Shown here: piece after piece, positions 33,582-39,391 of the stretch
Layout of the letters: each line of letters opens with the position of its first letter
Numbering within the stretch: position 1 is the stretch's first letter
Assembly (NCBI RefSeq): GCF_030687145.1
Contig: NZ_CP117460.1
Coordinates: 3,224,001-3,288,000, forward strand
From: Pseudomonas sp. FP1742
GTDB lineage: Bacteria; Pseudomonadota; Gammaproteobacteria; Pseudomonadales; Pseudomonadaceae
DNA length: 64,000 nucleotides
Direction of reading: 5' to 3'
Made by a program: the position numbers and the translations under genes
The notes under the pieces: model-generated
What the model was told of the DNA's origin: nothing
What the model saw: the letters and a program-made list of their open reading frames with translations, nothing else
Databases searched by the model: none

Positions 33582-33584
33582 ATG

Positions 33585-33661
33585 GGTGGAGGCCATACGC
33601 AGGTTGGTAGACCGGGCTCTAGGAAAACGGCGCACCCGAAGGTGCCCTGCGCATGACCACC
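33585..33661 (-). ncRNA. C4-like antisense RNA in the DUF6124 leader
   Basis: 77 nt on the minus strand. GGTGG and CCACC plus ATGCGCAGG/CCTGCGTAT form a closing stem; inside is a GCACC-UUCG-GGTGC tetraloop hairpin and a single-stranded CGGTCTACCAACC segment. That layout and the conserved words match the phage P1/P7 C4 antisense RNA family as I remember it. The CUACCAA segment can pair with GTTTGGTAG downstream (33571-33581) or with TTTGGTAGCC upstream (33718-33729). C4 RNAs regulate the gene encoded downstream on the same transcript. Confidence 0.62.
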
Positions 33662-33717
33662 ATAAAGACGAGACGAAAAGGCTCGGCAAAAGGCAGTGCT
33701 TTGCAATTAGAGACCCG

Positions 33718-38178: not shown

Positions 38179-38200
38179 TGTGGGAGCGAGCAAGCCCGCT
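38179..38200. repeat. left part of the REP palindrome split by the IS110 element
   Basis: TGTGGGAGCG AGCAAGCC CGCT, continued after the insertion by CTCCCACA at 39367-39374. Removing 38201-39368 restores a perfect 10-bp inverted repeat TGTGGGAGCG/CGCTCCCACA. Confidence 0.88.
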
Positions 38201-38216
38201 TGTATGTTTAGACTTG

Positions 38217-38361
38217 AAGGGGTGGGTGGGACTAAAAGCCCGATTCTGACTCTAGCCAGTACAGACCGTGGGAGACTTCGTCCCACCCCTTCTACCTAAA
38301 AGCGCCAATAAGGAATTCATCGGCTAGGCCGACGATAGAGACAAGCCAGCGCAACGGTAGA
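38217..38361 (+). ncRNA. candidate IS110 bridge RNA (target and donor loops)
   Basis: Stem-loop 1: AAGGGGTGGG (38217) pairs with CCCACCCCTT (ending 38291). Its loop contains AAGCCCG (38236-38242), identical to the left target half, and GTGGGAG (38268-38274), the exact complement of CT plus the right target half CCCAC. Stem-loop 2: TCTACC (38291) pairs with GGTAGA (38356-38361). Its loop contains GAAT (38313-38316), identical to the base run before CT at the right end, and ACAAG (38341-38345), the complement of CT plus the left-end TGT. This matches the LTG/RTG and LDG/RDG layout known for the IS621 bridge RNA. The actual transcript ends are not known. Confidence 0.75.
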
Positions 38362-38400
38362 CCCCAACAAGCTCTTAAACCCTAGCTCCGAGGATTCGTC

Positions 38401-39363
38401 ATGACAATCCTTACTTCGCAAGCGGTCGTGGGTGTTGATGTGGCCAAGGCTGAGGTGCTCGTCTATCGCGCCGATCTGCAAACCACACAAGCCATCTCCA
38501 ATAATCGAGCAGCACTCAAACGTTGGCTCAAGACGCTGCCCGCCAAAAGTGGCATTGCCGTTGAGGCCACCAACATTTACCACTTGGACACGGTTGAGTT
38601 GGCCTATGAGTTGGGTCATCAGGTCTACGTCGTGGACGGTTATCGCTTGAGTCATTACCGCCGCGGTGTCGGCCAACGAGCTAAAAATGATCCGTGTGAT
38701 GCTCGTCTTCTGGCTCGGTATCTGGCGCATGAACAGGGTGGGTTACGCGCTTGGAGCCCGCCGCCCAAGGCTTACAAGGCCCTGCAAAGCCTGCTTCATC
38801 GACGGGCAGCACTGATCAAGGCGCGTGTCAGCCTGGCTCAGAGCTGGGCCAATGAGCCGCGCCTGGAAGAAGAGCTGAAATGTCTGATGGAGACGTTTAA
38901 GCGCTCGGATTTGGCCATTCAAAAACAGCTGCGTGACCTGAGCAAAGAGGCCGGAGCCGCCGAAAATATTGAGCGTTGCAAGGCCATTGAAGGCGTTGGT
39001 GTACTGACGGCAACTGGATTTGCGACGGCTTTTTTGCGTGGCGAGTTTAAGGACAGCAATGCCTTCATCGCTTTTTTGGGCATGGACTTGAGGGTCGATG
39101 ACTCGGGAAAAAAGACGGGGAGTCGCAGTCTGACCAAGAAAGGGGATCCGGAAATACGACGTCTGGCCCACAACTCGGCCATGGCCGCCTGTCGTTCAGC
39201 GACCTGGAAACCATTTTATGAAGGGTACCTGGCCAGAGGTTTCAAGAGGACTCAGGCCCTGGTAATCCTTGCCCGAAAACTCGCCCGGGTGGCGTTCGCT
39301 CTGATGAAAAACCAGAGCGAATACCAACCGAATCGACCGTTGCAGGGTTGTCCTGCAACATAG
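38401..39363 (+). CDS. IS110-family transposase (serine-containing DEDD recombinase)
   Basis: 320 residues. N-terminal RuvC-like DEDD domain: Asp in VVGVDVAKAEV (about residue 13), Glu in AVEATNIY (about 57), Asp-Asp in RAKNDPCDARLLARYL (about 98-101). Coiled-coil about 135-185. C-terminal Transposase_20 domain with EGVGVLTATGFATAFL near 198 and GDPEIRRLAHNSAMAA near 250, which carries the Ser region. Length is usual for the family and the frame is intact. Start has GAGGA eight bases upstream. Confidence 0.93.
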   Translation: MTILTSQAVVGVDVAKAEVLVYRADLQTTQAISNNRAALKRWLKTLPAKSGIAVEATNIYHLDTVELAYELGHQVYVVDGYRLSHYRRGVGQRAKNDPCDARLLARYLAHEQGGLRAWSPPPKAYKALQSLLHRRAALIKARVSLAQSWANEPRLEEELKCLMETFKRSDLAIQKQLRDLSKEAGAAENIERCKAIEGVGVLTATGFATAFLRGEFKDSNAFIAFLGMDLRVDDSGKKTGSRSLTKKGDPEIRRLAHNSAMAACRSATWKPFYEGYLARGFKRTQALVILARKLARVAFALMKNQSEYQPNRPLQGCPAT

Positions 39364-39391
39364 AATCTCCCACATTGGATTTGCGCCATCC

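Follow-up and report, generated by a model that had tools for sequence, protein, structure and literature searches.

An ISPpu10-like IS110 element of Pseudomonas with a predicted bridge RNA whose guide loop follows the REP variant occupied

Background

An insertion sequence in the genome of Pseudomonas sp. FP1742 breaks a REP sequence at one exact point, which raises the question of how that point is chosen and whether an RNA from the element's own left end reads the target. That ISPpu9 and ISPpu10 insert into REPs was described in 2006 (PMC1525189); each of the two elements had seven copies in P. putida KT2440, all of them interrupting a REP after its 9th base, and the insertions carried a 2-bp direct repeat. 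A bridge RNA has been predicted for ISPpu10 (PMC11208160, Extended Data Fig. 10), and natural re-direction in IS1111 types is described in the seekRNA paper (PMC11187229). Insertion into REPs, the bridge RNA prediction for ISPpu10 and the concordance of guides with targets are thus already in the literature; the interest here is in a clean natural series of guide-target pairs and a possible tracking of host repeats. The window analyzed is a stretch of 64,000 nucleotides (G000:C1:3224001-3288000) from the FP1742 genome, a single contig of 6.67 Mb.

Results

An ISPpu10-like element of the IS110 group

The element is complete and 1168 bp long (38201..39368, forward strand), with CT at either side; its ends were those common to ten full-length copies in the genome, whose flanks beyond the REP differ. 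It encodes a transposase/recombinase of 320 aa (38401..39363, forward strand), which was identified by domain matches and by alignment with chain 8wt6_A of IS621. Both Pfam domains of IS110, DEDD_Tnp_IS110 at the N-terminus and Transposase_20 at the C-terminus, were found in the protein, which with a conserved serine place it in the IS110 family, and it scored above the NCBIfam cut-off for NF033542, "IS110 family RNA-guided transposase". In the alignment the DEDD residues were D13, E55, D97 and D100, joined by S235 (numbering by eye), and we take these to be the catalytic positions in IS621. The relatives of solved structure at E ≤ 0.001 were IS621 and ISCro4, and no others.

There are 200 nt of noncoding sequence before the ATG and 5 nt after the stop codon, which is the arrangement of the IS110 group and not of IS1111. 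In IS1111 types the noncoding region is described as lying downstream, with subterminal inverted repeats (PMC11187229), while the FP1742 element has it upstream. Among the best 120 of 1896 relatives, ISPpu10 was the specific name given by the sources, to proteins of 74% (P0061) and 64% (P0108) identity; the element is ISPpu10-like by the names that those sources gave to its relatives. In plasmids, 1,824 of 72,556 records matched, with the best places all below 60% identity.

A candidate promoter would be formed where the right and left ends meet in a circle, with a possible -35 hexamer TTGTCC (39348..39353, forward strand) and a -10 hexamer TATGTT (38203-38208) at a spacing of 17, although it is weak and a second pair of hexamers within the 120 joined bases has an equal consensus score. 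At that spacing, the upstream hexamer started with TT in 37 of 48 distinct right end-left end junctions, and the downstream hexamer read TATG.T in all 48. The possible -35 box overlaps a palindrome, TTGCAGG..CCTGCAA (39340-39358), just inside the right end. In two relatives (L105 and L110) this palindrome reads TTTGGGGG..CCCCCAAA, with pairing kept in other letters; it was not clear in every relative, and it is perhaps a terminator or an end structure.

At the Rfam gathering cut-off the element had no match, and the sole match in the window was a C4 antisense RNA elsewhere (33582-33667, reverse strand; 76.5 bits against a gathering cut-off of 45). C4 antisense RNA is a regulator of phages P1 and P4, and the match suggests a prophage or satellite remnant nearby.

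A single REP point is occupied throughout the genome

The left part of the split REP (38180..38200, forward strand) contains the left half of the target, AAGCCCG (38192-38198), and the core CT (38199-38200). The core CT at the right end and the right half CCCAC follow at 39367..39373 (forward strand), as judged from the sequence and from the other copies in the genome. In other words, the element divides the REP between AAGCCCG-CT and CCCAC. The genome holds the element at 11 places, ten full-length copies and one 277-bp left part, and AAGCCCG|CT lies on the left and CCCAC on the right at all 11 (for the 277-bp piece the right side was read by eye). The ten full copies all show the fixed REP point and the 2-bp core on both sides that characterize the ISPpu10 group. 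A base-by-base comparison with the copy in the window covered seven of the other nine full-length copies and showed 0 to 2 differences; it left out L016 and L018, of which L018 is one base shorter. The copies represent separate insertions, because their outer flanks differ.

The 277-bp piece (L019, G000:C1:376706-376982) spans the predicted RNA region in full and reaches 77 bp into the gene. Its left side is the same as in the full copies, and it ends in ..GATCT on an internal CT that is followed by CCCAC. Apparently this CT acted as the right end, through mis-recombination or ATCT microhomology, in what is a single case in this genome.

Intact copies of the 14-base target AAGCCCGCTCCCAC were far more numerous than occupied ones. 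The original prediction spoke of at least six in the window; 11 exact ones were counted, and one more with one mismatch, where shuffles gave 0.04 expected. Genome-wide there were 1238 (621 + 617), and the reversed control pattern had none; with that many sites still intact, occupancy is under 1%. An empty-site search found flanks that align across the joint without the element, over the same interval, for 7 of 19 loci in relatives; by eye, none of these seven candidates had an intact 14-mer at the joint.

A predicted bridge RNA with two guide loops

A consensus fold of the left ends of 24 relatives (RNAalifold, about positions 1-185) consisted of a closing helix, a target-binding stem-loop and a donor-binding stem-loop. 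In the window the core of this predicted RNA lies at 38213..38371 (forward strand; coordinates assigned by hand), and the closing helix pairs 38213-38221 with 38363-38371 (forward strand). The fold has 34 pairs, with 99.8% of cells paired and three pairs with two-sided changes. Its covariation score, cells paired and cells with a two-sided change were above those of all 500 column shuffles, and the score was also above that of every slid version. The number of pairs with a two-sided change (reached by 112 of 500 shuffles) and of further pair types (438 of 500) showed no excess over shuffles. The covariation support for the fold is real but modest, because most pairs are invariant. Folding of 38201-38400 as a single sequence gave a modest z of -2.0, with 6 of 200 shuffles equally good, and the case for a bridge RNA is one of covariation rather than folding energy.

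The first loop carries letters of both target halves, as the original prediction had pointed out. The left target guide AAGCCCG (38236..38242, forward strand) is identical to the left half at 38192-38198; among relatives it varies in step with the left flank. The right target guide GTGGGAG (38268..38274, forward strand) is the exact reverse complement of CT plus CCCAC at 39367-39373, and in L187 and L188 it reads GTAGGAG with CCTAC flanks. The letters noted earlier in the second loop were also present: a left donor guide GGAAT (38312..38316, forward strand) fits the right end, ..AGAAT, through GAAT, and a right donor guide ACAAG (38341..38345, forward strand) is the complement of CTTGT, the core CT plus the TGT of the left end. 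Four of the five letters of each donor guide were invariant across the 24 aligned relatives. Taken alone, two 5-nt donor matches would be weak evidence.

The arrangement resembles that of IS621 of E. coli (structures 8wt6 and others), in which an RNA of the left end, upstream of the gene, likewise has a target loop and then a donor loop. In both, the 5' side of each loop pairs with the bottom strand and the 3' side with the top strand, and a REP target and a CT core are common to both. The protein is distant (phmmer E 1.2e-21), the REP is different, and the right guide of 7 nt is at the long end of the described 4-7. The two guide loops around a CT core that define an IS621-type bridge RNA are found here as sequence and covariation, the donor loop as short conserved matches. 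The seekRNA of ISEc21, an IS110 type, is described as similar in that the RNA comes from a noncoding region that lies upstream and matches both target strands (PMC11187229).

Guides and targets vary together among relatives

A search of the genus found a match in 99 of 398 genomes; scoring was limited to the best two candidates in each genome, so the copies are a sample. Left ends came from 72 loci of named genomes, many of them fragments, and 66 further stretches. Twenty-seven of 127 left ends were dropped, four for a short flank or false match and 23 for an identical flank and left end, some of which are true second copies. The test set was made up of 100 distinct copies, drawn from 58 genomes or records. 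Their 11-nt loops fell into 23 types, and the 7-nt guide is identical in some of these types.

The guide matched the commonest target of its own type at a mean of 5.70 of 7 letters, compared with 4.67 ± 0.17 when targets were shuffled among types, and none of 20,000 shuffles reached it. Related elements share guide and target alike, so the test was repeated within three left-end clades, where the mean was 5.80 against 4.89 ± 0.17 and again 0 of 20,000 shuffles reached it. The counts overstate independence because the copies are related; the clade-stratified test nonetheless holds. By copy, 49 of the 100 matched at 7 of 7 letters, 33 at 6, 10 at 5 and 8 at fewer; in other words, 82 matched at 6 or 7 and 18 at 5 or less. 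The core was CT in all 100. The guide loop, on this evidence from aligned sequences, follows the REP variant that is occupied, also inside sequence clades.

There were exceptions. In P. entomophila, L042 and L043 have the loop CTAGATCCGCT and the targets ACTACGA and GGGGCCG, with at best 4 of 7 letters matched, and the match in G091 was 3 of 7. Some of the poorly matching copies are contig ends or decayed. The original prediction had named identical loops with unrelated flanks as the observation that would count against guidance: at the 11 places in FP1742, where other copies were expected at the same REP half-sites and lie there, this was never seen, but it does occur in a few relatives, such as L176, with the guide AAGCCCG and the left flank TTGGTAG. 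Across the whole set guide and flank change together, and guidance of the element to REP by an RNA is supported at that level. In the mismatches there was no preference for G-U wobble (12 wobble-compatible against 13 transitions in the reverse direction).

The right half of the target was CCCAC in 79 copies, CCTAC in three and CTCAC in one, and was missing in 17. This near uniformity, 79 CCCAC and four one-letter variants among 83 readable flanks, would also be expected if the transposase alone read the REP by its sequence or hairpin, with the loop matches incidental, and a palindromic repeat is something that a protein could read. In the same direction, ISPpu9 and ISPpu10 are reported to share the REP point though the elements are not highly similar (PMC1525189). 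Against recognition by protein alone, the guide letters track the flank letters within clades.

Several relatives had right ends joined to other DNA with no left end, which was read as ordinary decay. L055, L082, L084, L085 and L086 are such remnants inside contigs, with CCCAC still on the 3' side, and represent one-sided loss of the element. L030 (the same as L112, G066:C45) contains two related copies in the same orientation, with left ends at 2799 and 4151 and about 182 bp between them. Both have the identical 22-nt left flank, so that either neighboring REPs were both occupied or there was a duplication. Mobile guide-only derivatives were considered for G046, seemingly internally deleted, and dropped as evidence, the copy printed out having a run of 100 N, either an assembly gap or a withheld stretch.

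The right guide and distant relatives

GTGGGAG was the right guide in all loop types except two, those of G094 and of a decayed copy in G221. In G094 the right guide is GTAGGAG and CCTACG follows both copies fetched, which places them at CTCCTAC. The right guide changed and the right target changed along with it, which a protein reading the REP unaided would not explain. The G094 genome has 149 TTCGCTCCTAC and 35 TTCGCTCCCAC sites, where FP1742 has 2 and 4, and the altered right guide fits the commoner REP form of its host. G018 has 135 TTCGCTCCTAC and 142 TTCGCTCCCAC sites, the guide GTGGGAG and both copies fetched at CCCAC; alone it is no test because there are two copies only. Against joint change, L095 is flanked by CCTACA and L127 by CTCACA, with the right guide unchanged in each.

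More distant relatives with other guides occupy other sequences, several of which fit those guides, and this too argues against recognition by protein alone. An element of the Ectothiorhodospiraceae (50% protein identity) has the left guide GACGCCGC, which matches 8 of 8 letters at L034, and L036 and L037 have the same target. The left flanks were GACGCCGCT in three of four copies and GACATCGCT in the fourth, L033, which goes against the pattern in reading GACATCG where its three sisters read GACGCCG. The right guide of this element is GTGGGAG, and CCCAC was on the right side of the nine copies seen. The right guide GGCAAAG of L048, from a gammaproteobacterial MAG, matches the flank CTTTGCC at 7 of 7, and GTCTGAG in L051 (Herminiimonas) and L045 (Xylophilus) matches CTCAGAC at 7 of 7 in each; L046 matches at 6 of 7 and ties with other elements. 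Left matches were 7 of 8 in L047 and L051, 6 of 8 in L048 and 5 of 8 in L046.

When each target was compared with all eight elements (L045 has no left flank and the right flank of L047 is too short), the left guide of its own element was the single best for the window copy, L034 and L187, tied for L047, L048 and L051, and was beaten for L046. The right guide of its own element was the single best for L048 and L187 and tied in the remaining rows; the window ties with L034, and L051 with L045, because each pair has the same right target.

Guides and the REP population of the host

Five REP 14-mers were counted across 55 genomes. The comparison of guide and host used 44 genomes, out of 55 counted and 49 with a guide; six with copies filed under record names were left out. 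The variant best matched by the guide was the commonest REP of the host in 25 of the 44 (shuffled mean 11.1, maximum 22 in 20,000), in a comparison that covers five variants, leaves aside copies at other targets and uses genomes that are not independent. With one genome per loop type the count was 10 of 17 against 3.95 expected, which 7 of 20,000 shuffles reached. Guides tend, statistically, to match the commonest REP of their host.

Such a match could make the guide trivially predictive of the target, and each copy was accordingly judged against its own host's pool. Eighty of the 100 copies entered this test: their target was one of the five variants, and their genomes had 50 or more sites of these variants. 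Of the 80, 78 had a single best variant. Sixty-three of the 78 were in the variant best matched by their guide, where 46.0 ± 3.2 were expected. For 29 copies the best-matched variant accounted for less than half of the host's pool, and 15 of them were in it, against 6.0 ± 2.0 expected. By these counts the guide predicts the occupied REP variant beyond its abundance, which recognition by protein alone would not account for, and we regard that alternative as very improbable.

Tracking of the host has clear exceptions. In 19 of the 44 genomes the guide did not match the commonest variant; all four distinct copies in G290, G205 and G267, with the guide AGGCTCG, are in AAGCTCG, and the elements of G367 and G100 sit in AAGCCCG contrary to their guides. 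The match of guide and host could also come from sorting rather than adaptation.

Discussion

The element is very probably an autonomous ISPpu10-like insertion sequence of the IS110 group that inserts by bridge-RNA-guided recombination. By analogy with the family, the transposase would excise it as a circle in which right end, CT and left end are joined (as in the account of PMC11208160). The left end would then give an RNA of roughly 160-180 nt, which would be loaded and used by the transposase. Recognition by the guides is supported by covariation for the target half and by short conserved matches for the donor half, and the strands would be exchanged at CT by the DEDD recombinase. By inserting into REPs the element probably avoids genes.

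The left-end RNA might instead mainly regulate translation of the transposase, with the target match secondary. Its region may, by position, double as the leader of the transposase mRNA, and in ISPpu9 tnp is reported to be affected by a leader of 244 nt and by two sRNAs, Asr9 and Ssr9, each about 180 nt long (PMC8450116). This would leave unexplained the matches to both target halves and their joint change, and as a main function it is highly unlikely, though regulator and guide are not mutually exclusive roles. Asr9 is described as a highly stable RNA of about 180 nt that is antisense to the tnp leader (PMC8450116), whereas the RNA predicted in the FP1742 element is sense. As an idea only, Asr9 might be the bridge RNA of ISPpu9 read from the other strand (direct repeat AG). 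Finally, that the loop took its REP letters by recombination with flanking REPs, with no guidance, would suit guides that look like pieces of REP and in 25 of 44 genomes fit best the most frequent REP counted in the host, but is scarcely credible for left and right guides that are sense and antisense, 25 nt apart over a conserved stem, unlike a REP fragment, and for a single guide type that serves 11 sites in one genome.

Guidance by the predicted bridge RNA would explain the fixed insertion point in REP. The FP1742 element is like ISPpu10 in its IS110 family membership, its one fixed REP point and its 2-bp core; it differs from ISPpu10 and ISPpu9 of KT2440 in its host, a different Pseudomonas that has its own REP variant and 1238 intact targets of that variant. 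If the guides are read correctly, a left guide AGGCTCG would direct insertion to AGGCTCGCTCCCAC and a right guide GTAGGAG to AAGCCCGCTCCTAC. Over evolution, the target loop would be rewritten and would tend toward the REP class that its present host has in abundance. We put at about even the chance that selection makes the guide follow the REP population of its host, with the target loop rewritten on entry to a Pseudomonas with a new REP. Among the listings of open-licence PMC papers, nothing was found on guides following host REP classes.

Conclusions

Bridge RNAs are being developed as recombination tools, and little was found in print on natural guide change. In one lineage left guides, one right guide and target variants change together, which is a natural test of guide evolution, and the same series also informs mismatch tolerance and site choice; many hosts of the lineage offer hundreds to over a thousand countable target sites. 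If guides do follow their hosts, repeated changes of the left guide and at least one of the right guide would each have kept plenty of harmless sites open to the element. Such change would amount to a natural, ongoing reprogramming of an RNA-guided recombinase inside one bacterial genus.
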